Shown: in pieces, positions 9,402-25,963 of the stretch
Numbering within the stretch: position 1 is the stretch's first letter
Layout of the letters: each line of letters begins with the position of its first letter
Program-made: the position numbers and the translations under genes
Origin: Bacteroidaceae bacterium
Lineage (GTDB): Bacteria > Bacteroidota > Bacteroidia > Bacteroidales > Bacteroidaceae
Direction of reading: 5' to 3'
Length of the DNA: 59,052 nucleotides
NCBI GenBank assembly: GCA_016280445.1
Contig: JAEEGS010000031.1
Location: 1 to 59,052 of the forward strand
The notes under the pieces: generated by a model
What the model was told of the DNA's origin: nothing
The model's input: only the letters and a program-made list of their open reading frames with translations
Database searches by the model: none

Positions 9402-9440
9402 TCCGTATATCTTTAGGGTACCATATTCAAAAAACAGTTG

Positions 9441-9471
9441 CAAAGGTACATCATTTTCACCGAACGGCAAA
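9441..9471 (-). promoter_or_regulatory. promoter of the thr operon
   Basis: On the minus strand TTTG (9471-9468) is followed after 19 bases by TACCTTTG (9448-9441), matching the Bacteroidetes primary-sigma consensus. Transcription would start about 9435, giving a leader of roughly 35 bases before the ATG at 9401. This site also argues against the upstream start at 9551. Confidence 0.8.
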
Positions 9472-9522
9472 GAAAAAAACTCAAAACCAACTTTTTGAGG
9501 ACGAAATTGCAGGGACAGAAAG

Positions 9523-9558
9523 AAAGAACGTGCATTCGAGTTCGAACGCACGTTCTTT
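9523..9558 (-). terminator. terminator of the GH115 gene
   Basis: AAAGAACGTGC (9523-9533) pairs perfectly with GCACGTTCTTT (9548-9558), and the loop contains a second 5-bp stem (TTCGA/TCGAA). On the minus strand the stem is followed by TTTCTTTC. It lies eight bases after the GH115 stop and separates it from the thr promoter. Confidence 0.75.
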
Positions 9559-9566
9559 ATAGGATA

Positions 9567-12080
9567 TCATAATGTAGGGCTCCCGAAGTAACTGTAGTGG
9601 TTGTTGTCGGGGTTGACCACGATTTGCTCGACCACGATTTCGGGGTCAATCATGATGATTTTGAGCGTGTGCTTGCCTTCTGTGATGTCGGAGAAGGTGG
9701 CATCGAGCCAACGGAGGTTGTCGAACACTTCGTCGCGACGGGGCAGTTGACGGCCTTGCCAGAATCCGCTCAGGGCGAGGCGGCTGCGTGGTGGCAGGGG
9801 CTTCAGCACTTTGGAGCGTGAGAGATTCTGCGGATTGTACTCCGAGAAGGTGTCGACAAGGCCACGACGGGCATCAATCGTCTGCATGGGCTGATTGTCT
9901 ATCTGCACGCCGATGCGGAGGCCACGAGCAGGATAGATGTCCTGTGTGGGGAGGATGCCGATGGCAACTTTTCCTTCAGCAGTGAGATTGACTTCATATT
10001 CGAGGGTGGCTCCGCTGTCTTGTGCCTTCACGTTGCTGCTGCCCATGCAGCCGTCGGCGCGTCCGAGATCGGGCAGGAACGTCCACGTGGCTTCCTTGCC
10101 GTCGGTCTTGCGGGTGTAGCGATGGGCAGGGATGCTGTATTCGAGGGTGGATGCCGTGCTGCTGGCGATATGGTCAACCTTGAAGCCGAGAGTTACAGGG
10201 TTGACGTTCTTGTCGGGAATCGACCACTTGGTATAGCCGATGTGATTGTCCTGCATCATCTTGTTCCACTTGCCGCCAGCCACTTGGTGGTAGTAGTCGC
10301 TGAGTTGGCGGTCGCGAGCCATCAGTTGCTCCACGAGCGGAGAGTTCCCACGGGTGGCTGCGTTGTAAATCTGAGCCACTCCTGCACTCGCCACCACGGG
10401 GTAGTACACTAACTGGTAGTAGGCATCCTGCGCATCGGCTGGAATCTTCGTGCGAAGAGCCTCTGCACGGGCAGCGAGGGAGAGCCAAAGGCTGTCGGTA
10501 TAGGCCATTTCCTCCTTGTTGAAAATACCAGGCACTTGTGCTTCGGCTTTGCGCCAAAGATTGTATTTCGAGTATTTGGCAATGAGGTCAGCAGCTTCTT
10601 TGGCTATTTCAGCGGGGCAACTGCTGAACACGGACGCTGAGAACTGCTCCAGCCACGCCTGCTCGTCGCCAGCCTTGATGACTTCGGGGTTCCATGCATA
10701 GTGCATGATGAAGTCGATGGGCACTTCTTTGGGCTTCAGGTCGCCCACGTTGATAATCCAAATGCGGTCGATGCCCGTCTGATAGGCGAGGTTGAGTTGC
10801 TCGCGCAATTTGGGAATGGTGGTGGTGTTCACCCATCGGTCGTTCCAAGGCCCACCGTTCATGTCAATATGGTAATAGAGGCCAAGCCCTCCTTTGCGCT
10901 TGCGTTCGAAGTCGCGGCCGATGCGACGGATGTAACCCCAGTTGTTGTCGCAAAGCAGCAGGGTCACGTCGTCGGGCACCGTGAAGCCTGCGTCGTAGTA
11001 GCGCTGCACCTCGGTGAAGATAGCCCACAATTGCGGCACTGCATCCTCACGGCCGTACACCTTCTTGATGATGGCACGCTGACCCTTCAACACTTCGGCC
11101 AAGGTCTTCATGTTGTCCTCGTCGTTGCCCTTCCCCATCGCCACATCGCCGTCGCCACGCATGCCGATGGTCACGAGGTTGTCGTAGTTCTTGTTGCGCT
11201 GCATGCCCTCGAGGAAGAAACGGTCGAGCCGTTCCTTGTTCACCGAGTAATCCCAAGGGCCGATGCTGTCCTTCCTGTACACATATTCCTTGTGTGCCCG
11301 CATCATCGGCTCGTGGTGAGAAGTGCCCATCACAATGCCATACTCGTCGGCCACTTTCGGAGTCAGCGGGTCATCTTCGTTGAAGCGAGAATCCCACATG
11401 GCTGGCCACAGGTAGTTGGCCTTCAGGCGCAAGAGCAACTCAAACATATGGGCATACATCTTGGAGTTCACGCCTCCGAAGTGTTCCGTTGCCCAACCAC
11501 CAAACGAGGGCCACTCGTCGTTGATGAAGATGCCCCGATACTTCACCTTCGGCGATGGTTGCACAAAACGCCCGTCCGTCCAATACACCTCATCCTGATG
11601 CTGCACGGGCACATCTGCCCACCAATACCAAGGCGACACGCCTATCCTCTGGCTTATCTCGTAGATGCCGTAGATAGTGCCTCGCTTATCGCTTCCAGCC
11701 ACCACAAGACGGCCGTCCACCACATCGATGACGAACGACTCCCATTGCCCCTTCACCTTGCTCACATCGAGTTTCTTCTGCTTGACAAGCCCGTCAATCA
11801 GGCGGCTCTTGCCGATGGTTCCGACGCAAATGGCACCAGTGCCATTTTCAAGTTTCAACTTCCCATTTTCAATTTCCACGGCACTCGCCGTTCCCGTCAC
11901 CTTCCGTACATCGTCGCCCAAATCACGGGCAGCACGAATCACTCCTGCCCAATCCTTCTCATCCACCACGACGGGAGCCGCTTTGCCGTCTTTGGCTATA
12001 CAAAAACTTCCTTGTGCCATTGCACTCATCGCCGCCACAACGCAGGCGATGCATACCGTCACGAATCTCTTTCTTTTCAT
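9567..12080 (-). CDS. glycoside hydrolase family 115 (probable xylan alpha-1,2-glucuronidase)
   Basis: Secreted enzyme expected to remove glucuronic acid side chains from glucuronoxylan. The start at 12080 gives a clean signal peptide (MKRKRFVTVCIACVVAAMSAMAQ); the in-frame ATG at 12149 would put 23 unlikely residues before it. GH115 landmarks are present: SPWYWWADVP, KYRGIFINDEWPSFGGW, LLRLKANYLWPAMWDSRF, GIVMGTSHHEPMMR, LLCDNNWGYIRR and the late LEQFSASVFS stretch. The C-terminal part (after about residue 620) is rich in beta-type sequence, as in GH115 accessory domains. Length is 837 residues. No SusC/SusD pair, regulator or other glycosidase is adjacent, so it is an orphan enzyme rather than part of a polysaccharide utilisation locus. 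No T9SS sorting signal is seen at its C-terminus (NPDNNHYSYFGSPTL). Confidence 0.9.
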   Translation of the reverse strand: MKRKRFVTVCIACVVAAMSAMAQGSFCIAKDGKAAPVVVDEKDWAGVIRAARDLGDDVRKVTGTASAVEIENGKLKLENGTGAICVGTIGKSRLIDGLVKQKKLDVSKVKGQWESFVIDVVDGRLVVAGSDKRGTIYGIYEISQRIGVSPWYWWADVPVQHQDEVYWTDGRFVQPSPKVKYRGIFINDEWPSFGGWATEHFGGVNSKMYAHMFELLLRLKANYLWPAMWDSRFNEDDPLTPKVADEYGIVMGTSHHEPMMRAHKEYVYRKDSIGPWDYSVNKERLDRFFLEGMQRNKNYDNLVTIGMRGDGDVAMGKGNDEDNMKTLAEVLKGQRAIIKKVYGREDAVPQLWAIFTEVQRYYDAGFTVPDDVTLLLCDNNWGYIRRIGRDFERKRKGGLGLYYHIDMNGGPWNDRWVNTTTIPKLREQLNLAYQTGIDRIWIINVGDLKPKEVPIDFIMHYAWNPEVIKAGDEQAWLEQFSASVFSSCPAEIAKEAADLIAKYSKYNLWRKAEAQVPGIFNKEEMAYTDSLWLSLAARAEALRTKIPADAQDAYYQLVYYPVVASAGVAQIYNAATRGNSPLVEQLMARDRQLSDYYHQVAGGKWNKMMQDNHIGYTKWSIPDKNVNPVTLGFKVDHIASSTASTLEYSIPAHRYTRKTDGKEATWTFLPDLGRADGCMGSSNVKAQDSGATLEYEVNLTAEGKVAIGILPTQDIYPARGLRIGVQIDNQPMQTIDARRGLVDTFSEYNPQNLSRSKVLKPLPPRSRLALSGFWQGRQLPRRDEVFDNLRWLDATFSDITEGKHTLKIIMIDPEIVVEQIVVNPDNNHYSYFGSPTL

Positions 12081-12262: not shown

Positions 12263-13345
12263 TTAGTGACGCTGCCTTCTGACAGACACACGGGGAGCGC
12301 CGCCACTTGCTGAGGAGCCACCACCCGACCTTTCTTTCTTGCCCGAAGAGGCGGAGGAGCCACGACGGCTGGTGCGTGAGGCTGACGAGGAGGCTTTCCC
12401 GGCAACAGACTTGCCCTTCTTGCCCTTGGCCGATGCAGCGGCGATGGAGTCGCGTCTGGCCTGCTCGACAGAATCGACAGGAGTGCTCCAAATGTGCTCT
12501 TCGAAGTCGGTGATTTGTTTCTCGATGCGGTTCTGTTCCTTCTTCAGCAGGGAGTCGGTAGCACAGTATTGCTGCAGCGACCTATTCTGCATGTTGGTGG
12601 TCATGTAGATTTCACCCTTATAGTGATTGGTGGAGAAGAAATCGTCCATCGACATGCGGGCAGCGTTGTTGAGGTTGCTGGTCATCACTTCCTGACCGCT
12701 GAGATAAGTCTTGACATCGTCGTATTTCACCCAGAAGAGGGGACGCTTCTGCACGTTGTCGGAGTAGGAGAACTCGTCGGCTGCACGATGCAGCACAGGG
12801 CAAAGCGCCACGATGCGGCTGTGATAGGTGGCCGTGTTCTGGTCGTAGTAACTGCTTTCCTTCACATAGTAACTGAGCACCTCGGAAGAAGGTATGTCGC
12901 TCTGAGCCACTTTGATGCTGTTGCCATCCACCTCGTAGAAGATATCCTGACGCTCCAGCAAGTCCTTGAAGTGCATGCGGTTGCTTTGCTGGAAGTTTTC
13001 CACACCATCCAACTGATACTCGTAGGCAGGAATCTTGCCTGTGTTGAGCAACCTGAACAGCAACGTGAACAAGTTCATGTTGCCGCCTTGTGGCTCGACT
13101 GGATAGTAGAGTGCCGCATTCTCGTCCTTGGTCAGGTCGATGGAACGGTAGATGTCGCGTCGCCAACTGGGGTCTTCAGGCACATCAACCGCGGTGGGGA
13201 ACATGAGGCTGGCTCTGTCGTTGCCTGCAGCATCAGTCTTCTTTGCAGCCGTTGTCCTTGCGTTCTGCACTCGGCTCTTCTGTGGCTGGGCAACCATCGT
13301 GCCTGCCACGCAGAAGGTAATCAGTATGATAATAAAACGTCTCAT
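12263..13345 (-). CDS. gldN: T9SS component GldN/PorN
   Basis: Periplasmic ring component that partners the lipoprotein GldK beneath the outer membrane. The start at 13345 gives MRRFIIILITFCVAGTMVAQ, a signal peptide cut after AQ; the in-frame ATG at 13399 lies inside an inverted repeat and is rejected. Family features include RRDIYRSIDLTKDENAALYYP, the LFTLLFRLLNTGKIPAYEY segment and the WSTPVDSVEQARRDSI end of the conserved region. Length is 360. The last 55 or so residues are low-complexity Lys, Ser, Gly and Arg with no hydrophobic pattern. It is the last gene of porP-gldK-gldL-gldM-gldN and is followed by a strong terminator. Confidence 0.93.
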   Translation of the reverse strand: MRRFIIILITFCVAGTMVAQPQKSRVQNARTTAAKKTDAAGNDRASLMFPTAVDVPEDPSWRRDIYRSIDLTKDENAALYYPVEPQGGNMNLFTLLFRLLNTGKIPAYEYQLDGVENFQQSNRMHFKDLLERQDIFYEVDGNSIKVAQSDIPSSEVLSYYVKESSYYDQNTATYHSRIVALCPVLHRAADEFSYSDNVQKRPLFWVKYDDVKTYLSGQEVMTSNLNNAARMSMDDFFSTNHYKGEIYMTTNMQNRSLQQYCATDSLLKKEQNRIEKQITDFEEHIWSTPVDSVEQARRDSIAAASAKGKKGKSVAGKASSSASRTSRRGSSASSGKKERSGGGSSASGGAPRVSVRRQRH

Positions 13346-13352
13346 AATTACA

Positions 13353-13510
13353 GACCCCCTCTGCCTGAAAGGCATCTCCCCCTCTATGGGGAGAACCATC
13401 CGGCTTGTTTGTCAAGCGGGGGTGACTTGTTTTAGATGTTTATTATTCCCCAACATTCCGCATGGCCTTCTCCCCATAGAGGGGGAGATGCCTTTCAGGC
13501 AGAGGGGGTC
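13353..13510. repeat. inverted-repeat element, copy A (gldM-gldN gap)
   Basis: Perfect 43-base arms at 13353-13395 and 13468-13510 flank a 72-base middle. Outer ends are GACCCCCTCTG and CAGAGGGGGTC, and each arm contains the smaller palindromes CTGAAAGGCAT-like and CCCCTCTATGGGG. The element fills the gap almost exactly, ending 7 bases from each gene. No coding capacity. It is related to the element at 15933-16097 and would form a very stable hairpin in the operon mRNA. Confidence 0.92.
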
Positions 13511-13517
13511 TTCTTTC

Positions 13518-15077: not shown

Positions 15078-15925
15078 GCTATCTTCATTTTCAGGGCTTC
15101 AACCATCTTGAAATAGACGTCGTTCAGTTCTTGCAACTGAATAGCGAGTTTCTTGGTTTGCTCGTTCACCTCGTCGATAGTGGCCGACTGAGTGCCTACG
15201 CTCTTCAACTGCATCTCGTAGAAGCGGTTGATGCCTGTGAGGGTGCGGTTCATGTTCTCCATCTCCTCGGAGTCGCGAGTGAGACGTGCACTCTGCTCGG
15301 CCACCTTCTTCAGCGTGTCGGTCAGTTCGGTCAACTGCTCCACATACGCCTTGGTAGCCTCCTGCATCTCAGGTGCCATGCTCTGGAACTGAGCCGAGCG
15401 GAATACAGGTGCCGACGAGATGTTCTCTGCCAACTGGGCAGCATCGACAGCCTCTTCTTTACCACCAACAGCGCCAGCAGAAGCAGCAGCACCTCCAGCG
15501 TTGGAGCCGCCACCACCATTGATGACAATCGTGCCACCACTTGGCACACCTCCGCCACCAACAACCACAGTGCCACCAGTAATAGGTACGCGTGATGCAC
15601 TTGTAGCGGCATTGGCCAAGGCTGCCACCGTCTCTTCAGAAAGGGAAGAATTGGTTTGTGCCACAATAGCTGCATTCTCTGCCACTTCCTCAGCCAACTC
15701 CTGTGCATCCATACTCTCTTGCGGTTCGAAACCAGCCAAGAAGAACACGATGACCTCTGTGCCCATACCCAACCAGAGCATGATGTCTGCACCATCGGTG
15801 TGGGTGAGTTTGAAGAGGGCACCTGCAATCACGACGGATGCACCCCAACTATAAGCATAGTTCAAAAAAGTCTGACCACGCTTCGTGCGAAGCCATTTCT
15901 GTATTCCTGTATATTGTGTTGCCAT
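15074..15925 (-). CDS. gldL: T9SS motor component GldL/PorL
   Basis: Inner-membrane motor subunit. Two helices near the N-terminus, FLNYAYSWGASVVIAGALF and DIMLWLGMGTEVIVFFLAGF, carry the family's conserved pattern, including the E in the second helix region and the following EPQES. A Gly/Ala/Ser-rich linker at about residues 110-155 (runs of GGG) precedes a cytosolic helical part ending MVEALKMKIA. I place the start at 15925 (MATQYTGIQKWLRT); the in-frame ATG at 15979 lies inside the repeat element. Length is 283. The Gly-rich linker is longer than I would expect and may vary between strains. Confidence 0.93.
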   Translation of the reverse strand: MATQYTGIQKWLRTKRGQTFLNYAYSWGASVVIAGALFKLTHTDGADIMLWLGMGTEVIVFFLAGFEPQESMDAQELAEEVAENAAIVAQTNSSLSEETVAALANAATSASRVPITGGTVVVGGGGVPSGGTIVINGGGGSNAGGAAASAGAVGGKEEAVDAAQLAENISSAPVFRSAQFQSMAPEMQEATKAYVEQLTELTDTLKKVAEQSARLTRDSEEMENMNRTLTGINRFYEMQLKSVGTQSATIDEVNEQTKKLAIQLQELNDVYFKMVEALKMKIA

Positions 15926-15932
15926 AATGATA

Positions 15933-16097
15933 GACCCCCTCTGTCCTTTGGACATCTCCCCCTCTATGGGGCGAGCCATCCGGTTTGTTTTCTGACTGGA
16001 GGATTTTTTTATTAGTTATTAAATATATTTTACATTTCCTGACACCCCGCAAGGTTCTCCCCATAGAGGGGGAGATGTCCAAAGGACAAAGGGGGTC
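15933..16097. repeat. inverted-repeat element, copy B (gldK-gldL gap)
   Basis: Arms at 15933-15975 and 16055-16097 match at 40 of 43 positions, with the same outer ends (GACCCCCT and GGGGGTC) and the same inner CCCCTCTATGGGG core as copy A. The middle (79 bases) starts CCATCCGG like copy A, then diverges and is AT-rich. It ends 7 bases from gldL and 6 bases from gldK. No transposase or ORF is associated. Confidence 0.92.
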
Positions 16098-16103
16098 TTT
16101 CTC

Positions 16104-18825: not shown

Positions 18826-18863
18826 AATAAAACCCCCGTTGCCTATTAATTGGGAACGGGGGT
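18826..18863 (-). terminator. terminator of the LRR/cohesin cluster
   Basis: ACCCCCGTTGCC (18832-18843) pairs with GGGAACGGGGGT (18852-18863) with one mismatch; on the minus strand TTTTATT follows. It ends 24 bases beyond the stop of the 65-residue gene. On the plus strand TCTCTTTTTT follows, so it may work both ways. Confidence 0.85.
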
Positions 18864-18886
18864 CTCTTTTTTGCACTTATAGAGTT

Positions 18887-19084
18887 TTACCAAAGATCCT
18901 CTTCGTCGGAGAAAAAGTCTTCCTCCGTGCGCATCTTGGCGCTGGGGTCTTTAGAGCCGCCAGTGTCCACACCGCCATAACCGGCATTCACACCAGCACC
19001 GTCACCGCTGACGCCTAACAGCATTTCCCTGCTTTCCATCTGCTGGTACCCCATTGCTGGAGTCACATATACTTTCTTTTCCAT
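18887..19084 (-). CDS. small acidic hypothetical protein (65 aa)
   Basis: Short protein beginning MEKKVYVTPAMGYQQMESRE, then a Gly-rich centre with GVSGDGAG and GYGGVDTGG, and an acidic aromatic tail DFFSDEEDLW. No signal peptide or membrane segment. I recall similar peptides (basic start, YVTPxM, Gly-rich core, acidic end in W) scattered through Prevotella-type genomes, without known function. It is 54 bases downstream of the cohesin-like gene and just ahead of the terminator, so it is the last gene of that operon. The layout of helical leader plus Gly-rich tail resembles peptide precursors, but no modifying enzyme or exporter is nearby. Function unknown. Confidence 0.65.
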   Translation of the reverse strand: MEKKVYVTPAMGYQQMESREMLLGVSGDGAGVNAGYGGVDTGGSKDPSAKMRTEEDFFSDEEDLW

Positions 19085-19138
19085 TGTTTTACTCCAATTA
19101 TGAATTCAAAAACTTCAATTCTTCAACTCTTCAATTCT

Positions 19139-20359
19139 TTAATTCTTTACGACTTTCTTTCCGTCAATCACATATATGCCCCTCGGCAGCCGCTTCACGT
19201 CCTTCTCTCCCAGCGCCACGCCCTGCAGGGTGTACACGCCCTTCTTCTGCTTGGCGGCGATGCCGCCGATGCCGGTGGCTTCTTCACCCGGGAAGGTCAT
19301 GCGCACTTTTGCGCCATTGCCGTCATTTTCAACTTCTGCCAGCACATCGGCCAATTCAAAATAGGCACGGAAAGCCTTCGTTTTTGTCAATCCTGTGGAA
19401 TACCAGAAGTTGTTTTCACTCAGAAAGAGATTTTCCTCTGGCACCGTGGTGTTTGCCACATACGTACCTATGAAGTAGCCACGTTCAGCCTTCTTCGTAC
19501 CCACCTGTACGTACGGCTCGTCCTCAGGGTCGATGTCCACACCGTCCACGGTGAACTCGCTGATGGCCGAACTCACCTTGATGAGGCACGGGTGGTTGGC
19601 TGCCAGTGCACTGATGGCTGTGAATCCGATTTTGAGGCCTACAATGTTGCCATCGTTGTCTTCCTCAGATGACCACGAGGTGAAGTCTGCCAGCTGCACA
19701 TCCTCACCAAAGGCGGCTGTCACCTGCGCTGCACTCATGGAGAAGGGCAGCACAATGGTGCTCCACTCGTTGGCCTTGATGGTGCGCTTCACACGCACAT
19801 CCACACCTGTGGCTGCTGCAGGCGCAGTGGTGGAAGTCTCGTCCAGCACCACGCGTGTGTCGGCAGGTGCGCCGATGGTGATAGTGAAGGGAATGTCCAC
19901 CGGCGTGTGCTTCGTCTCGTCAAGCTCCGTCAGGTTGATGGCTGAGAGACTGCAGGCAAGCTCCGCACCTTCCTCCAGCACAGCATCGGCCTTGAGGGTG
20001 ATCAGCACAATCGCTCCGCTCTTTTCGGGTATCGCCTGCGTCTCCGTGTAGTAGCCCAGCACACGGAAGGTGTTCACCTCCGTATCGGGCTGCGACATGC
20101 CTAGCGTGAAGTCATCGTCCAGACGCTCGCCCCTTGTGTAGTCCAGCTTGCCCTTCTCGTTGAGGGCGACCGTGATACCAGCTGCCAAATCCACATTGAA
20201 CTGGAATGCGGTGAAGTCCGTCGTTGGGTTCTCCAGCGCAATCTCCAGCGTGGCCTCCCCTCCCTTGGGGATGGTGATGTTCTGCACCGTGAGGCCTTCT
20301 GCCGCAGCACGGCCGCACCATGCGGCCAGCACTGCCAATAACATGAAAATCTTCTTCAT
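19139..20359 (-). CDS. secreted protein with cohesin-like domain and T9SS-type sorting signal
   Basis: Signal peptide MKKIFMLLAVLAAWCGRAAAE. Residues about 22-155 look like a cohesin-type beta-sandwich: GGEATLEIALENPT, FTAFQFNVDLAAGI, TLGMSQPDTEVNTFRVLGY and GAIVLITLKADAVLEEGAEL are the usual strand pattern. The middle (about 185-345) has beta-type sequence with no family I recognise, beginning TIKANEWSTIVLPF. The C-terminus GVYTLQGVALGEKDVKRLP then RGIYVIDGKKVVKN is a short type-A T9SS sorting domain, so the protein should cross the outer membrane via the machinery encoded next door. It sits between the giant LRR/dockerin gene (88 bases upstream) and the 65-residue gene, all on one strand. 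Its own ligand is unknown; the neighbour's dockerin is a candidate. Confidence 0.8.
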   Translation of the reverse strand: MKKIFMLLAVLAAWCGRAAAEGLTVQNITIPKGGEATLEIALENPTTDFTAFQFNVDLAAGITVALNEKGKLDYTRGERLDDDFTLGMSQPDTEVNTFRVLGYYTETQAIPEKSGAIVLITLKADAVLEEGAELACSLSAINLTELDETKHTPVDIPFTITIGAPADTRVVLDETSTTAPAAATGVDVRVKRTIKANEWSTIVLPFSMSAAQVTAAFGEDVQLADFTSWSSEEDNDGNIVGLKIGFTAISALAANHPCLIKVSSAISEFTVDGVDIDPEDEPYVQVGTKKAERGYFIGTYVANTTVPEENLFLSENNFWYSTGLTKTKAFRAYFELADVLAEVENDGNGAKVRMTFPGEEATGIGGIAAKQKKGVYTLQGVALGEKDVKRLPRGIYVIDGKKVVKN

Positions 20360-20447
20360 TTCTTTATTTTTAATTTAAGTTTTGGACTTCTTTTGATATA
20401 TAGATGATTCAAATCCCATTCATCTTTCTCACCTGTGTTGAAACTGC

Positions 20448-23400
20448 TCATTGTGGGTCCATCATCTGCATCGCCTCACGCACCTTGGCGGCGTTCACAC
20501 CTCCGTCGTGCAGGATGATGTTGGCCACCACCACGATATCCGTCACATCCACGCTGCCGTCACCGTTCACGTCGGCTGCCACCGCGTCGAACGACTCGCT
20601 TGCATGGTCCAGAATGCTGTTGGCGATGCCCACAATGTCCGTCACGTCGATGACATTGTCACCGTTGGCATCACCCGGGATGCTGTTGTGCACGGTCAGC
20701 ACGCAGGTTGCATCGGTTGGCGAGATTTTCTTCTCTGCCGTTGTCGTCAAGTTGATGTCGGAGATTCTCACCTCGTAGTCACCTGCCTCCATGTTCTCCG
20801 CAGCCTCCAGGGTCACGTTGATGACTGCGCCCTCGTTGCCCGTGATGCTTTCCACATCCGGGGAGTACAAGAGTACCTTGTACACATTGGCCTCCCCTGG
20901 CTTGCTTGCGCTCAATGTGTGGTCAGCGCATCGGCCTGTTGTTGCCAAGATGTATTTCCCCTTGCTGTTCTTTGCGATGCTCACACCAGCCGGTAGCGTG
21001 AGGTCGAACTGAATGGCGGTGATATCCTCTGTGTTGGTCATGCTCACAGGCAAGATGATTTGTCTGCCACAAAGCACTTGGACGTCGGTAAGGGAAAGAG
21101 TGTTGTTGACCGCTTCCACCACTGTCAGCGTTCCCTTCACATACGTCATCTCATAGTTGGCTGCCTCTGCACCCGACACGTTGATATCGTAAGTGCCGAC
21201 AGGGCTTTCAGTGGTTGCCTCACAGGTGAATGTGGGTTGTGCGGTCAGCACAGTAGCATCATCTTCACCCACAAAACCTTCGTAGGATGCCGTGAATGCA
21301 GGATTCTCCTCACCTACATTCTTAGTAGCATCGTTAGCCGTGATGGTCAGTGGAGCTTGGGCCACAGTTAAGGTGAACTCCCTGCTGAAAGGCTTGTAGT
21401 TGTCATTACCAGCCTGTGATGCTGTGATGGTGGCTGTGCCTGCACCCACGATGCTGAGGGTGTTGCCGCTGATGGTCGCCACACTGGTGTTGCCGCTTGT
21501 CCATGTGAGCGTCAAGCCTTCTGTGGTTGTTGCTGGTAAGGTGTAGGCAACATCACCGTAAGTCTTTTCTGGCAGCGAAGTCAAAGTCATTGATTGTGCC
21601 GCTTTCGCTGTCACTGTCAGCGTTCCCTTCACGTATGTAATCGTATAGTTGGCAGACGAAGCTCCCGATGGGGTAATATCATACGTGCCAGGAGTGCTGG
21701 ATGATGTAGTGCTACATGAAAGGGTGGGTTGTGTGGTCAGCACCATTGGTGTTTCATTGTTTTTGAAGCCTGAGTAAGTGGCTTCAAAGGTAGGCAATGC
21801 CTCTCCTTCCATGATAGTGTAGCTCTTTGCGGTGATGGTCAGTGGAGCCTTGGCCACTGTTAACGCGAACTCCCTGCTGAACGGCTTGTAGTTATTGTTG
21901 CCTGCTTGGGTGGCAGTGATAGTAGCAGAACCTGATCCCTTCACGGTGAGGGTGTTGCCGCTGATGGTTGCCACATTCGTGTTACCGCTTGTCCATGTGA
22001 GCGTCAAGCCTTCTGTGGTTGTTGCTGGCAAGGTATAAGCAGCATCACCGTAGGTCTTTGCTGGCAGAGATGTCAATGTCATTGATTGTGACGCTTTCGC
22101 AGTCACGGTCAGAGTACCCTTCACGTATGTAATTGTATAGTTGGCAGACGAAGCTCCCGATGGGGTGATATCATACGAGCCAGGAGTGCTGGATGATATA
22201 ATGCTGCAGGAAAGGGTGGGCTGTGTGGTCAGCACCGTTTGTGTTTCATTGTTTTTGAAGCCAGAGTAGGTCGCTTCAAAGGCTGGCAATGCCTCTCCTT
22301 CCATGATAGTGTAGCTCTTTGCGGTGATGGTCAGCGGAGCCTTTGCCACCGTCAGCGTGAACTCCTTGCTGAAAGGCTTGTATTCCTCGTTACCAGCCTG
22401 TGATGCTGTGATGGTGGCAGTACCAGCTCCCTTCACGGTGAGGGTGTTGCCGCTGATGGTGGCTACATTCGTGTTGCCGCTTGTCCATGTGAGCGTCAAG
22501 CCTTGGGTGGTAGTTGCAGGCAAAGTGTAGGCGGCATCACCGTAGGTCTTTGCTGGCAGGGATGCCAGTTCCATTGACTGCTCATTGCGGTTGTCTAATT
22601 CCACAATACCTCCCTTGAAAACACTTTCTGACCAACCTGCCGCAATGTATGCATCTCTTGTTCCGTATGGAACAGTCAATGTACAGGTGGGTGAAATATT
22701 TTGGAAAGCGTAGATATTAAAATCAGACGGCTCTTCAATCTCTGATATGACTGAGGTCAAGTTTGTACAATTCTTGAAAGCATAACTTCCTATTATTGAT
22801 GTGACGCTGTTGGGAATGGTCACAGAAGTCAAGCCACTACAATCTCTAAAAGCACTATTCCCTATTGATGTGACACCATTAGGAATACTTACAGAGGTCA
22901 GACCACTGCAGCCGTCGAAAGTTTCTGTTACAATTGATGTGACATTATTAGGAATACTTACAGTCGTCAGACTACTGCAGCCAGAGAAAGCAGCATAGCC
23001 GATTGATGTAACACTATTAGGAATGCTTATAGTAGTCAGACCACTACAACCTTGGAAAGCACGATCTCCTATCGATGTGACATTATTAGAGAAGGTCACG
23101 GAAGTCAGACTACTGCAGTCGCAAAAGGCATATTGGCCAATGGATGTGACATTGTTAGGAATAATCACGGAACTCAAAGCATTACAGCAATAGAAAGTAC
23201 CTGTTCCAATGGATGTCAACCCTGTGAAATATTGCAACTCATCAAACGATGTAATTTGTGTGTTATTCTTGAATACTGTACCCAAATCTGTTACTGCTGC
23301 AGCTTCTTCCTCACTTAATCCTCCATCACCATTCGTGTCCCAATTGGCCACACAGATGGCTTCTACGTTAGCATCAGCAAAAGTAATGTTTGGAACTGCT

Positions 23401-24512
23401 TCAACAATTCCACCTTTGAACACGTCTTCCGTCCAGCCTGCTGCAATGTAGGCATCTTTTGCGCCGTATGGGACAGTCAAGACACAATTCGCAGGAATGT
23501 TTACAAAAGTGTAATAACTAATTGTAAATGGTGTTGTTATCTCAGAAGTGATGGAGGTCAAACGGGTACAATACTCGAATGCATAGTCACCAATAGTTGT
23601 GACACTATTAGGAATAACTACAGAACTTAAGCGGCTACAGCCGGAGAAAGCCTGATATCCAATGGATTTAACACTTGCAGGAATAGAGATTGAGGTCAAA
23701 CCGCTACAATTAGAAAAAGCATCTTCACTAATAGATATACATCCCTGATTCAGAGTTATGTTTGTAGATTGGGGCATTGTGCCTTTGTATTTGTACGCTA
23801 CATTATTAATGTAAATTAGCCCAGTTGGTTGATTATTATACCAAGCTGTTCCCAGAAAAGCATTACCTCCTATTATTGTAATATTATCGGGAAAAGTGAT
23901 GGAGGCTAAATTACTACAATTCTGGAAAGCACAGGCACCAATTGAAGTGACTATACTTGGAATATTCACAGTAGTCAAACTGCTACAATCCCAGAATGCA
24001 CCATAACCAATATATGTTACTCCTTCTGGGATATTCACTGAAGTCAGAGCTTTACATCCATAAAACGTGCTGGATGCGATAGTCGTGATGCTATTGGAAA
24101 GGGTTATAGATTGTAAGGCGCTGCAATCCTTAAAAGCATAACTGTCAATAGTCGTTACACTATTGGGGATGATCAGATCTTTCACACCTGTGGCCTGCAA
24201 AAAAGCCCATGATCCGATATATGTGACACTGTTAGGAATTGTTACAGAGGTTAAGTTGCTACAATTTTGGAACGCCTGCTCGCCAATAGATTTCACAGTA
24301 TATGTAGTCGATTGGTAAGATATCGTAGAAGGAATCGTAACACTCCCCGAATACGAATTATAAGCAGTATTCTTGTACGTTACTGTAGCCGTTTTATTAC
24401 TTGTGTTCAGATTGTAATAGATGCCACCAATGTAAGCATCATACGCATGAACATAGAGCGACAACAACGTGGTGAATGCTGTCACTAAAGATTTAATGAT
24501 TAACTGTTTCAT
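20448..24512 (-). CDS. BspA-like surface protein: LRR_5, MBG repeats, cohesin-like domain, dockerin
   Basis: Large secreted modular protein (1354 residues from 24512). Numbering below counts from an in-frame ATG at 24527; I prefer 24512 because MKQLIIKSLVTAFTTLLSLY gives a tidy signal peptide. Order: BspA-type leucine-rich repeats at about 70-345, each like SVTIPNSVTSIGxxAFxxC; an EF-hand-like loop DTNGDGGLSEEE at 397-408; more LRRs at about 430-600; three near-identical MBG/Ig-like repeats at about 648-1136; a cohesin-like domain at about 1143-1280; two dockerin-type calcium loops at about 1284-1336 (DANGDNVIDVTD, DVNGDGSVDVTD). The LRR blocks end in twin modules LTVPYGAKDAYIAAGW and LTVPYGTRDAYIAAGW. 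No T9SS sorting signal: the chain stops soon after the dockerin (REAMQMMDPQ). BspA-type proteins bind host matrix or other bacteria. Function here is inferred. Confidence 0.88.
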   Translation of the reverse strand: MKQLIIKSLVTAFTTLLSLYVHAYDAYIGGIYYNLNTSNKTATVTYKNTAYNSYSGSVTIPSTISYQSTTYTVKSIGEQAFQNCSNLTSVTIPNSVTYIGSWAFLQATGVKDLIIPNSVTTIDSYAFKDCSALQSITLSNSITTIASSTFYGCKALTSVNIPEGVTYIGYGAFWDCSSLTTVNIPSIVTSIGACAFQNCSNLASITFPDNITIIGGNAFLGTAWYNNQPTGLIYINNVAYKYKGTMPQSTNITLNQGCISISEDAFSNCSGLTSISIPASVKSIGYQAFSGCSRLSSVVIPNSVTTIGDYAFEYCTRLTSITSEITTPFTISYYTFVNIPANCVLTVPYGAKDAYIAAGWTEDVFKGGIVEAVPNITFADANVEAICVANWDTNGDGGLSEEEAAAVTDLGTVFKNNTQITSFDELQYFTGLTSIGTGTFYCCNALSSVIIPNNVTSIGQYAFCDCSSLTSVTFSNNVTSIGDRAFQGCSGLTTISIPNSVTSIGYAAFSGCSSLTTVSIPNNVTSIVTETFDGCSGLTSVSIPNGVTSIGNSAFRDCSGLTSVTIPNSVTSIIGSYAFKNCTNLTSVISEIEEPSDFNIYAFQNISPTCTLTVPYGTRDAYIAAGWSESVFKGGIVELDNRNEQSMELASLPAKTYGDAAYTLPATTTQGLTLTWTSGNTNVATISGNTLTVKGAGTATITASQAGNEEYKPFSKEFTLTVAKAPLTITAKSYTIMEGEALPAFEATYSGFKNNETQTVLTTQPTLSCSIISSSTPGSYDITPSGASSANYTITYVKGTLTVTAKASQSMTLTSLPAKTYGDAAYTLPATTTEGLTLTWTSGNTNVATISGNTLTVKGSGSATITATQAGNNNYKPFSREFALTVAKAPLTITAKSYTIMEGEALPTFEATYSGFKNNETPMVLTTQPTLSCSTTSSSTPGTYDITPSGASSANYTITYVKGTLTVTAKAAQSMTLTSLPEKTYGDVAYTLPATTTEGLTLTWTSGNTSVATISGNTLSIVGAGTATITASQAGNDNYKPFSREFTLTVAQAPLTITANDATKNVGEENPAFTASYEGFVGEDDATVLTAQPTFTCEATTESPVGTYDINVSGAEAANYEMTYVKGTLTVVEAVNNTLSLTDVQVLCGRQIILPVSMTNTEDITAIQFDLTLPAGVSIAKNSKGKYILATTGRCADHTLSASKPGEANVYKVLLYSPDVESITGNEGAVINVTLEAAENMEAGDYEVRISDINLTTTAEKKISPTDATCVLTVHNSIPGDANGDNVIDVTDIVGIANSILDHASESFDAVAADVNGDGSVDVTDIVVVANIILHDGGVNAAKVREAMQMMDPQ
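21118..22586. repeat. three tandem ~490-bp coding repeats (MBG domains)
   Basis: Inside the LRR gene, protein units of about 164 residues recur three times, with shared motifs PAKTYGDAAYTLPATTT, GLTLTWTSGNTNVATISGN, YKPFSREF and APLTITAKSYTIMEGEALP. The first two units are nearly identical, also at DNA level (for example the repeated stretches around 21590-21700 and 22080-22190); the third is more diverged at its end. Such repeats can change copy number by recombination. Confidence 0.85.
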
Positions 24513-24544
24513 AGAACCCCTGTTCATACCTCAGCCAGTCCCAA

Positions 24545-24578
24545 CAAAGGTATACATTATTATATATACACACACAAG
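24545..24578 (-). promoter_or_regulatory. proximal promoter of the LRR/cohesin operon
   Basis: TACCTTTG on the minus strand at 24552-24545, with CTTG at 24578-24575 (22-base spacer, slightly long). The predicted start, about 24538, lies just before the ATGs at 24527 and 24512. Confidence 0.6.
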
Positions 24579-24580
24579 AA

Positions 24581-24780
24581 GCGCGGAACTGTATGTCCAC
24601 ATCTTCAAGGTGAGGGTCCTAGGAAATACCCATAGCGGAAAGATGGTTATATAAAGCAGTTCCACGCATAATGCGTGAAGCCGCTATGTCCAACTTTACC
24701 GCTCTGAGTATGGCCGTAGGCACACGAGCCTTCTCAAAACATTCTTTGCAATGATTGAAAATTTCCTAGGTTTTCACCTT
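24581..24780. other. structured intergenic region with nested inverted repeats
   Basis: Several inverted pairs overlap here: GCGCGGAACTG (24581-24591) with CAGTTCCACGC (24657-24667), 10 of 11; CATAGCGG (24631-24638) with CCGCTATG (24681-24688), perfect; CACGCAT with ATGCGTG (24664-24677), perfect; and an outer pair of about 20 bases at 24607-24627 and 24761-24780 sharing CCTAGGAAAT. No ORF. It lies between the distal repeat promoter and the LRR gene, so it could be a folded leader, a small RNA, or a recombination site. Confidence 0.5.
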
Positions 24781-24945
24781 GCAAGAAAGAGCATAACGCT
24801 TCTATTTTATCCAATAAGCCACGGCACCGAGGCACCGCAGGAGGGCGCACAAGGCACCCTTTCGGTGGCAAAGTAAAGGAAAAAGAAAGAAATCACCAAA
24901 TTTTCCCCTAACTTTTTTGTTCCCATCAAGCTAAAAGACTCTTCC
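24778..24945. repeat. direct repeat flanking the toxin-antitoxin cassette, copy 1
   Basis: About 165 bases repeated at 25664-25830. The first 35 bases are identical and the block 24833-24904 is identical to 25718-25789; the rest is diverged. On the minus strand it carries TTTG (24900-24897), 20 bases, TTACTTTG (24876-24869), a promoter-like pair that points toward the LRR gene. Confidence 0.88.
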
Positions 24946-24950
24946 ACAAA

Positions 24951-24985
24951 CAAAAAAGGCACAAAGCCACGATGGACTTTGTGCC
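24951..24985 (-). terminator. terminator of the toxin-antitoxin cassette
   Basis: GGCACAAAG (24958-24966) pairs perfectly with CTTTGTGCC (24977-24985); on the minus strand TTTTTTG follows the stem. It lies about 30 bases after the toxin stop. Confidence 0.88.
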
Positions 24986-25013: not shown

Positions 25014-25421
25014 TTACCCCAATTGGTTTATAAAATCTTTTATCTTAATAATGGACACTTTGGGCCATGGTATCTCTTTAAGGACATTGAAATGAGAGTC
25101 ATTCGTGACAATGTATTCGGCATCAGCTGCAACAGCACAATCCACAAACTTGTTGTCATCTACATCGTTCTTAATGAGATGGAAGTGAATATACACTTCT
25201 TGGTATGTGGTTGTACTTAGTCGTGCAATAGCCTCCACCACATTACGAGCTATTTCTTTCGTTGTCTTCTCAGCAAGGATTTCCTCATACTCATCCAAAA
25301 TCTCCGTGTTCACACAAAGACTTATCTTACCTGACAACACGTCCATCCAAATCTTGTGGTAAGGACTGGATGTTGGCAATGTCTGCAACAAACAATTCGT
25401 GTCAAGAACGATGCGACGCAT
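25014..25421 (-). CDS. PIN-domain toxin (VapC-like, COG1569 type)
   Basis: Probable RNase toxin of a type II toxin-antitoxin pair. The 135-residue chain is one PIN domain: VLDTNCLLQ with D7, an acidic residue near 40-44 in NTEILDEYEE, DDNKFVDCAVAADA with D94, and EYIVTNDSHF with D108, which together can form the metal-binding acidic site. PIN toxins cleave tRNA, rRNA or mRNA; the target here is unknown. Its start overlaps the antitoxin gene end by 20 bases, the usual arrangement for coupled expression. A terminator follows. All key acidic residues are present, so the toxin appears intact. Confidence 0.88.
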   Translation of the reverse strand: MRRIVLDTNCLLQTLPTSSPYHKIWMDVLSGKISLCVNTEILDEYEEILAEKTTKEIARNVVEAIARLSTTTYQEVYIHFHLIKNDVDDNKFVDCAVAADAEYIVTNDSHFNVLKEIPWPKVSIIKIKDFINQLG

Positions 25422-25632
25422 ATCGATAGGGGGTGCGCATGTGTTCTGTACCCCATTGTTCTATGGTGTGTTCATTGATGGTGCCATTCTCCCATAGGGC
25501 ATCAATTGCTTTTTGGGCCTTTTGGGCAAAAAAGTTGGCCACAAGATCTCTGAACTCTTTAAGTTCTCTCTCGGAGGTGATGCTATTCAATGCATTCATC
25601 AACTCCAATTGTGCCATCTGACTATAAGACAT
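25402..25632 (-). CDS. antitoxin partner of the PIN toxin
   Basis: A 76-residue protein upstream of the PIN gene and overlapping it by 20 bases. It starts MSYSQMAQLELMNALNSIT, continues with a long predicted helix (SERELKEFRDLVANFFAQKAQ), and ends in a polar, basic tail (MRTPYRYASHRS). I do not recognise a DNA-binding fold in the first residues, but size, order and overlap are typical for antitoxins of COG1569-type toxins in Bacteroidetes. The helix may bind the toxin, and the pair may repress its own promoter, which lies in the direct repeat about 120 bases upstream. Confidence 0.8.
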   Translation of the reverse strand: MSYSQMAQLELMNALNSITSERELKEFRDLVANFFAQKAQKAIDALWENGTINEHTIEQWGTEHMRTPYRYASHRS

Positions 25633-25663
25633 GTTTTTTGTTATTTTATTGAAATTATTTCAG

Positions 25664-25830
25664 CTTGCAAGAAAGAGCATAACGCTTCTATTTTATCCAT
25701 AAGCCACGATGCAGAAACACCGCAGGAGGGCGCACAAGGCACCCTTTCGGTGGCAAAGTAAAGGAAAAAGAAAGAAATCACCAAATTTTTCTCCAACTTT
25801 TTTGTCTCTACTGAGCCAGAAGACTTTTCC
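25664..25830. repeat. direct repeat flanking the toxin-antitoxin cassette, copy 2
   Basis: Upstream partner of the repeat at 24778-24945; the two copies start 886 bases apart with the whole toxin-antitoxin module between them. Sequence shared includes GGAGGGCGCACAAGGCACCC, which can fold with itself (GGGTGCC/GGGCGC), and the promoter-like pair. No ORF longer than chance is needed to explain it. Confidence 0.88.
25754..25785 (-). promoter_or_regulatory. promoter of the toxin-antitoxin cassette
   Basis: TTTG (25785-25782), 20 bases, TTACTTTG (25761-25754) on the minus strand. The -7 box differs from consensus by one base. The predicted leader before the antitoxin ATG is about 115 bases and contains a GC-rich hairpin. 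Confidence 0.6.
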
Positions 25831-25963
25831 GTAAGTATAAAGGTTACACTTTGGAGTAGACAAAAAAAAATGGCTTGGATATCTCGACGATATTCGAAGG
25901 GTATTCGACAACGCTTCGGAAGCGTACTCCACACAGGTGGATGCAGGTGACCCGAACAATGGA
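25831..25963. other. intergenic, no feature recognised
   Basis: Between repeat copy 2 and the terminator of the CpxP-like gene. Only a short CGCTTC-GG-AAGCG palindrome is visible. The several ORFs that cross this area run through repeats and terminators and look spurious. Confidence 0.5.

Follow-up and report, generated by a model that had tools for sequence, protein, structure and literature searches.

How can a bacterium hold a large adhesin-like protein on its surface when that protein ends in a dockerin and carries no sorting signal of its own? The question is raised by three genes on the minus strand of contig JAEEGS010000031.1 (assembly GCA_016280445.1, Bacteroidaceae bacterium), of which positions 1 to 59,052, here called the window, were analysed. 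These code for a protein of 1359 amino acids (aa), a partner of 406 aa and a peptide of 65 aa, and together represent a recurring three-gene operon of rumen Prevotella-like bacteria which, judging by sequence, likely serves modular surface-protein display. In the explanation we favour, to which we give a probability of about 0.7, the operon would encode a split surface protein, a variable passenger and an exported anchor being joined by a dockerin-cohesin pair specific to each operon. Binding, its specificity, the surface location and the dependence on type IX secretion are what we infer; gene order, predicted folds, tail distribution, co-variation and natural fusions are what the analysis shows. 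The parts of the operon are as follows.

20448-24527, minus strand: gene for the large passenger protein, 1359 aa (open reading frame (ORF), Pfam matches, no export-type tail).
20682-21107, minus strand: predicted cohesin of the large protein, residues about 1141-1282 (AlphaFold2 model and fold matches; no PF00963 match).
20511-20678, minus strand: type I dockerin of the large protein, with the two calcium-loop repeats DANGDNVIDVTD and DVNGDGSVDVTD (PF00404).
19139-20359, minus strand: gene for the anchor or partner protein, 406 aa (ORF; AlphaFold2 mean pLDDT 89.9).
19862-20299, minus strand: predicted partner cohesin, residues about 21-166 (family profile and fold; the window copy has no PF00963 match).
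19142-19258, minus strand: short C-terminal sorting-type tail, GVYTLQGVALGEKDVKRLPRGIYVIDGKKVVKN (tail profile, hhalign).
18887-19084, minus strand: gene for the 65-aa peptide (alignment of relatives; lies 3′ of the partner in 73 of 77 loci; dN/dS).

A first-pass annotation had placed a three-gene surface cluster here, headed by a giant protein with a cohesin-like domain and a two-loop dockerin but no sorting signal. This description holds, with ORFs of 1359, 406 and 65 aa on the minus strand, a PF00404 match and a predicted cohesin fold in the giant, and a tail in none of the 64 dockerin proteins searched. The large protein has, in order, a signal-peptide-like N-terminus, BspA-type leucine-rich repeats (LRR_5, E 2e-131), MBG_2 repeats (E 3e-59), the cohesin, the dockerin (Dockerin_1, residues 1284-1339) and a short tail ending in MDPQ. 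A C-terminal DPQ, often LDPQ, is found shortly behind the dockerin in the large proteins of 20 of 64 cassettes and forms a conserved end. The dockerin scores 40.1 bits against PF00404 in the genome search (E 7e-8 in the protein scan), and only two dockerin genes exceed the Pfam cut-off in the 3.07-Mb genome. Among relatives 37 of 38 dockerins match PF00404, and over 142 loops from 71 dockerins the calcium ligands are kept at positions 12 (D in 142), 1 (D in 137), 5 (D in 126) and 3 (N in 124). Both window loops have VT at positions 10-11, and these two positions are identical between the repeats in 66% of the 71 dockerins, whereas shuffles give 11% and at most 27%. A recognition code at positions 10-11 was however rejected, as control position 9 is similarly alike (70% versus 24% in shuffles), so that the likeness of the repeats reflects a general internal symmetry and is not specific to recognition. 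A hydrophobic N-terminus is present in 54 of the 61 dockerin proteins having a complete 5′ end.

The partner consists of a signal peptide, the cohesin, a conserved middle beta domain (MID) and the export-type tail. By profile search this tail is found at the C-terminus of 71/71 partners, fused ones included, and on 0/64 dockerin proteins, even at E<10; the first count is partly by construction, because 20 of the 28 rows of the tail profile (A8) are the window or its partner homologues, which does not apply to the second. All 71 partners also have a hydrophobic N-terminus. In the window's own genome the tail profile matches 57 places at E<=1, and an hhalign comparison of it with five tails of the PF18962 type from that genome, three above and two below the Pfam cut-off, gave a probability of 89% and an E-value of 2e-6, which suggests a short type-A-like tail of the type IX secretion system (T9SS). 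Tails of relatives match TIGR04183 in 3 of 48 (best E 0.0014) and PF18962 in 2 of 28 (best E 0.007). The sorting signal and cohesin-like domain ascribed earlier to this gene therefore agree with the fold and the tail profile, although the curated T9SS models miss the tail of the window copy.

The two beta domains of the window are homologous to each other, with 35% identity (E 3e-16; hhalign of the family alignments, E 1e-32). A profile of 53 partner domains has cohesins as its best matches in the PDB (5n5p, E 6.7e-6; 2zf9, E 3.4e-4; 5lxv, E 5.8e-4), while LPXTG-type surface proteins and flagellins also occur, from E 0.042 on, among its 16 matches at E<=10. PF00963 matches at E<=1 were obtained in relatives for both domains: 21 of the 53 partner cohesins have one, the best at E 7.6e-8, and so do 15 of the 38 large-protein cohesins, the best at E 6.8e-7. 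AlphaFold2 models had a mean pLDDT of 90.1 for the cohesin end of the large protein and 89.9 for the partner. All 50 listed PDB fold matches of the former are cohesins or cohesin-containing entries; for the partner 41 of the 50 listed are cohesin entries, among which TMt reaches 0.81 for single cohesins, and the remaining nine comprise pilins, antigen I/II-type proteins and an integrin. The alignments behind the structure and Pfam work omitted near-duplicates and some other sequences: A3 has 38 of the 45 cohesin-dockerin ends of large proteins, A4 has 53 of the 64 partner cohesins, and A5 has 48 of the 64 partners. On these models, the family profile and the PF00963 matches in relatives, both beta domains are predicted to be cohesins. 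The first-pass call of cohesin-like domains is thus upheld by the family profile against the PDB and by the predicted folds, but not by Pfam PF00963 on the window copies.

To what extent the arrangement recurs was addressed with the partner alignment as the sole query against 84,980 species genomes, which gave 243 stretches and 226 relatives; the best 80 of the 226 were analysed, their gene context being called with hidden Markov models built from the first relatives. These 80 are metagenome-assembled genomes of Prevotella, Prevotellaceae, Bacteroidaceae, Bacteroidales and one Bacteroides, and the body sites stated are mostly rumen, omasum, reticulum and abomasum, with one sheep rectum. The partner is fused in frame behind a dockerin in 7 of the 80 loci, and a dockerin gene lies next upstream of 64 of the 73 unfused partners (63 of 72 if at least 600 nt of upstream DNA is required), at a median gap of 26.5 nt, giving a dockerin upstream or fused in 71/80. 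The peptide follows in 73 of the 77 loci that have 300 nt or more of downstream DNA (median gap 21 nt), in L173 at a distance of 3258 nt behind a further cohesin-dockerin gene; it was not found in L132, L151, L158, L161, L164, L177 and L182, of which L161, L177 and L182 have too little DNA. The gene triple, for which a search had been suggested, thus recurs, and it does so far beyond chance, as a 3.07-Mb genome has two dockerin genes while 64 of 73 partners have one next upstream.

The peptide gave a second entry to such loci. Of the family's 399 genomes, 37 matched the peptide profile at E<=1e-8, and these belong to 6 of 30 genera. Outside the window's genus there are 32 matches, of which 20, from 5 genera, were taken as a test set. 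A partner with MID and tail lies directly before the peptide in 20/20; of the 18 loci with enough DNA, 16 have a partner cohesin and 14 an upstream dockerin gene. No partner cohesin was recognised in L239 and L246, and it should be mentioned that L241 and L244 are probably the same contigs as L175 and L189.

Several copies can be present in one genome. Genome G043 has six operon copies, one with a cut dockerin gene, and the cohesin-dockerin query has 20 matches in G035 and 27 in G013. In relative G022 (L103:5295-7221), LRR, a cohesin, a dockerin and a further cohesin are spread over two overlapping frames lacking MID and tail, either through a frame change or an assembly fault. Passenger content varies, the 65 scanned having LRR_5 (27), Big_2 (18), InlB-type repeats (6), CotH kinase (4) and ricin-type lectin (4) domains, and one a C10 peptidase.

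Which domains touch was approached by co-variation, as correlations between distance matrices computed on the 49 of 71 cassettes that have all five parts; L182 was excluded from the 71 as no partner cohesin was recognised in it. The partner cohesin correlates with the dockerin of the neighbouring gene (r 0.75) and with the large-protein cohesin (0.74), and the dockerin with the cohesin of its own chain (0.67). The partner cohesin and the abutting MID of the same protein give 0.04, and MID and dockerin −0.03; the cohesin-dockerin correlation exceeds the MID-dockerin one by 0.61 to 0.90 (bootstrap, 2.5-97.5%). After removal of cassettes with partner cohesins at least 50% or at least 40% alike, which left sets of 24-48 cassettes (five parts) and 31-68 (three parts), dockerin and partner cohesin still gave r 0.54-0.64, reached by none of 500 permutations, with −0.09 to 0.09 for MID and 0.41 and 0.51 for the two cohesins. 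The partial correlation of dockerin and partner cohesin is 0.51 with the giant cohesin held constant, that of dockerin and own cohesin 0.27 with the partner cohesin constant, and that of the two cohesins about 0.48 with the dockerin constant (computed by hand from the correlations). An exclusive coupling of dockerin and partner is not claimed here, since in the full set the correlation of the partner cohesin with the giant cohesin is just as high.

Between copies within one genome, partner cohesins have a median identity of 32% over 22 pairs, of which three reach 87-100%, compared with 25% between genomes, while the corresponding values for MID are 65% and 51%. Since the cohesins of one genome are nearly as unlike as those of different genomes and the MID domains are more alike, operon copies appear to share the anchor and to keep their own recognition ends. 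As to the contact itself, in 19 of the 71 cassettes no cohesin of useful length was recognised directly before the dockerin (L111, one of these, is a cut frame) and the partner cohesin is still present; there the dockerin is preceded, for example, by LRR (L187), a CotH-like part (L137) or an InlB-like part (L145). Where fusion has occurred, the dockerin is adjacent to the partner cohesin. These dockerins without a recognised cohesin before them and the adjacency in fusions favour a contact of the dockerin of gene 1 with the cohesin of gene 2.

In the split-protein explanation the partner would cross the inner membrane via Sec and then be carried over the outer membrane and fixed on the surface by the T9SS through its C-terminal tail. 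The 1359-aa protein would pass Sec without a sorting tail, and its C-terminal dockerin would plug into the partner cohesin, presumably with calcium, so that the LRR/MBG adhesin is displayed on the partner. With its own dockerin-cohesin pair in each operon, several passengers could stand side by side without mixing, the passenger domain varying freely and the MID-tail anchor being common. The cohesin beside the dockerin is probably a further docking site or stabilises the dockerin, and the 65-aa peptide would, as a guess, most likely be a cytosolic companion of the anchor. A more far-reaching version is put forward tentatively, and we consider it rather less probable than not: large tail-less adhesins, bound by dockerin and cohesin to a small carrier that has the tail and is encoded by the adjacent gene, may be taken over the outer membrane together with it, in a piggyback form of type IX secretion with operon-orthogonal pairs and the peptide as a dedicated companion. 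If this were true, T9SS cargo would be a plug-in system.

Some loci are longer than the window operon. Two or three dockerin genes precede one anchor in L126, L131, L136 and L240; in the last (L240:1131-8469) three consecutive dockerin genes are followed by a single-cohesin anchor and the peptide, which suggests alternative passengers for one socket. A gene with dockerin and tail, then one with cohesin and dockerin, then the anchor, is the order in L139, L145, L152, L162, L165 and L251, and L180 has a like order but no tail detected on its first gene. In L255 a dockerin gene precedes a 2651-aa protein with a cohesin in front and MID and tail behind. The window's own genome has, at C77 (L013:4621-8190, 8406-10040), its second dockerin gene followed by one for a 544-aa protein with cohesin-like domains, whose matches are weak (E 0.095, 1.9 and 8e-4), without a PF00963 match; both proteins carry the tail, and the pair is perhaps a variant with a tail on both proteins.

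Such loci bear on the possibility of chains or shared assemblies of dockerin proteins, in which the large-protein cohesin takes up dockerins of other proteins, the partner anchoring the end of a chain. The first-pass annotation had allowed for chained copies or further partners, and matching gene orders do exist in the loci where more than one dockerin gene precedes the anchor (L240, L126, L131, L136), in those with the tailed dockerin gene, the cohesin-dockerin gene and the anchor in succession (L139, L145, L152, L162, L165, L251) and in the C77 pair with its weakly matching domains. Most of the 80 loci have however one dockerin gene before one single-cohesin anchor, the two dockerin genes above the Pfam cut-off in the window's genome leave few partners for extra cohesins, and the C77 protein has no PF00963 match; chains, while compatible with the split-protein explanation, are unlikely to be the general arrangement. 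The dockerin might instead bind within its own chain, by folding back on the cohesin there, or be a calcium-stabilised end cap; the partner would then be an independent surface protein that shares the operon by chance. A cohesin does lie directly before the dockerin in 52/71 cassettes and the two co-vary (r 0.67), but the other 19 dockerins (one from a cut frame) have no recognised cohesin there and the partner cohesin persists, the partial correlation falls to 0.27 against 0.51 for dockerin and partner cohesin, and in fused proteins it is the partner cohesin that the dockerin adjoins. Such a fold-back seems decidedly unlikely.

Another alternative is genetic hitch-hiking, in which the dockerin end and the partner cohesin are kept as a block by recombination in MID and have no binding function. 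The greater identity of MID within genomes (median 65% versus 51%) is what gene conversion would give, and the passenger side varies widely in domain content. Against this, partner cohesin and MID abut and do not co-vary while dockerin and cohesin do so across a gene boundary, binding-type folds and calcium ligands are kept on both sides, and in-frame fusions occur in 7 of 80 loci, all of which makes hitch-hiking highly improbable. A cellulosome was not adopted as an explanation because the anchor of the window has one cohesin and is not a multi-cohesin scaffoldin, and because no glycoside-hydrolase catalytic family is among the 25 families listed of the 42 found in the 65 passenger regions. 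The window passenger likewise has no glycoside-hydrolase family by Pfam, in line with the non-cellulosomal character proposed at first.

The split-protein explanation also has points against it. As the correlations of the partner cohesin with the dockerin and with the giant cohesin are alike (0.75 and 0.74), they describe a co-inherited three-domain block across the gene boundary and single out no one contact, and recombination within the conserved MID is a possible further contributor to the co-variation of the block. PF00963 has no match in either window protein, nor in the whole 3.07-Mb genome at E<=10. The tail of the window is not recognised by the NCBIfam, TIGR04183 or Pfam PF18962 models, its T9SS nature resting on profile comparison. 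No dockerin was detected in the next gene in 9 of the 80 loci (L132, L143, L156, L161, L169, L170, L175, L176, L185), nor in 4 of the 18 peptide-first loci (L241, L246, L252, L254), and relatives such as G035 have numerous dockerin-only matches elsewhere, in other contexts. In L249 the dockerin gene carries a tail itself, an exception to the division of labour. A loose lipobox pattern, absent from the window's protein, is present in 7 of 64 dockerin proteins, and for those another route to the surface is therefore open.

The 65-aa peptide has the core GYGGVDTGGSKDPSA and ends in EEDLW, with no hydrophobic signal stretch seen and no Pfam or NCBIfam match. In relatives it is under purifying selection (dN/dS 0.12-0.29 over 12 equal-length pairs, some of which are not independent, the L111 and L112 peptides giving the same values), and on this sequence evidence it is a real protein. 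The core [YF]GGxD is found in 67 of 74 peptides and a hydrophobic run in 8 of 74, with a mean excess of acidic over basic residues of six. A wider class of such peptides, starting MKKxYxxP, of 50-70 aa and often ending in LW, has seven copies in the window's genome at E<1e-3 and occurs also outside cohesin-dockerin operons. Five of the seven lie directly behind a gene ending in a tail (loci L190, L197, L198, L199, L200; the class is also seen at L227), an association that is partly by construction because four of the five were rows of the query known to follow tail genes; the profile (A7) includes four small-ORF matches (E 0.0014-0.16), each behind a tail gene. The L201 and L202 peptides lie beside lipoprotein-type genes, one behind and one before, and a peptide of this kind follows 5 of the 30 best tail genes. 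As its copies adjoin tail or lipoprotein-type genes, the wider class goes with genes for exported proteins and is possibly a companion of T9SS cargo operons. For the 65-aa peptide itself, a cytosolic companion of the anchor acting as a regulator or small chaperone is our guess.

Around the three genes, which are separated by 88 nt (genes 1-2) and 54 nt (genes 2-3), two further features were noted.

24545-24552, minus strand: TAnnTTTG element TACCTTTG, 17 nt 5′ of the start codon of the large protein (weak).
18829-18873, minus strand: terminator-like hairpin of 8 bp with a loop of 14 and a short T run, after the peptide gene (sequence reading).

TAnnTTTG is what we take to be the Bacteroidales −7 consensus, matched by TACCTTTG, and position 24552, given at first as the end of the cluster, is the outer edge of this element. 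A strict two-box Bacteroidales promoter pattern had no match at the operon, and a sigma-70-type promoter scan of the region was at chance level (9 found, 10.5 expected). The automated hairpin scan did not list the hairpin, its loop being too long for the scan.

Downstream of the operon lie genes for PorP, GldK and GldM of the T9SS, each above cut-off, which are thus encoded in the window's own genome. The location beside a T9SS operon, as first annotated, is therefore correct; its significance is not borne out, since among the fetched relatives only one close relative (L104) has this neighbourhood, and the proximity looks incidental. L104 (relative G011) adjoins PorP and GldK 95-98% identical to those of the window, while its cassette is far more diverged; its partner frame (L104:3736-4365) continues from MID into the last part of the peptide, through what appears to be a deletion between two short GVD-coding stretches. 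Upstream of the operon (25014-25632) are a PIN-domain gene (TIGR00305, PF13470) and a 76-aa ORF, a toxin-antitoxin-like pair flanked by direct repeats of about 190 nt (24772-24963 and 25658-25848; 150 nt at 83% and 42 nt at 98%) in a low-GC stretch. Dispersed repeats also lie at gene boundaries within the T9SS region (13343-13512 and 15923-16099; 104 nt at 72% and 45 nt at 82%).

For comparison with known systems, the available excerpts of open-licence papers were used, subscription papers being mostly outside this scope, and in them no description of this operon was found. The nearest precedent found is Candidatus Stygibacter (Cloacimonadota), for which a cellulosome-like complex with a cohesin-rich scaffoldin bearing a C-terminal domain (CTD) for the T9SS has been inferred (PMC8542988). 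The likeness lies in cohesins on a T9SS-CTD protein, C-terminal dockerins on enzymes with signal peptides and an inferred surface assembly. Whereas that organism has one scaffoldin of 3755 aa with tandem cohesins and carbohydrate-binding modules (CBMs), serving several enzymes (PMC8542988), the operons described here each have a small one-cohesin anchor, their own passenger (LRR, Ig-like, CotH, lectin) and a peptide gene, in several copies per genome. In Ruminococcus albus a single cohesin has been read as a surface anchor for isolated dockerin enzymes, without a true cellulosome (PMC6118326). The single anchoring cohesin is a shared feature, and cohesins of the Ruminococcus ScaE (PDB 2zf9), ScaB and ScaC types are among the best profile and fold matches here; unlike the present operons, these single-cohesin anchors of Ruminococcus have no operon-wise pairing of passenger and anchor and no T9SS-like tail. 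Cohesin anchoring in Ruminococcus is of the Gram-positive wall type. Peer et al. in 2009 reportedly dealt with non-cellulosomal cohesin and dockerin modules.

Dockerins of rumen Bacteroidetes have been met with before. Rumen Prevotella have dockerin proteins outside polysaccharide utilization loci (PULs), the role of dockerins in Bacteroidetes PULs being "not defined yet" (PMC7480376). Dockerins are abundant in the Bacteroidetes bins 49, 58 and 136, the last named for tandem cohesins and abundant dockerins, and with cohesins in certain Bacteroidetes were read as cellulosomal potential (PMC6071333), while some rumen cohesins and dockerins were assigned to Bacteroidetes families and cellulosomes considered possible (PMC4035507). 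The excerpts of these three papers describe no passenger-anchor-peptide operon or T9SS-type anchor. For a rumen Bacteroidetes genome with a T9SS it is stated that neither cohesins nor dockerins were identified, in agreement with other genomes of Bacteroidetes (PMC5831590). Piggyback export as treated in the excerpt of PMC9251779 concerns systems other than T9SS, and those of PMC8810776, PMC12098361, PMC10202321 and PMC6851124 contain no precedent.

On the whole, the surface-assembly model of the first-pass annotation is supported, as far as the indirect evidence of sequence reaches, and extends well beyond the window. For these rumen operons the likely cognate cohesin lies one gene from the dockerin, and the pairing may be easy to miss because 32 of 53 partner cohesins have no PF00963 match at E<=1. 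The question of what such dockerins bind is reduced to two small domains, and many natural, possibly orthogonal cohesin-dockerin pairs are offered. For the bacteria themselves, the operons suggest a non-covalent, operon-specific form of surface display coupled to a T9SS-type anchor.

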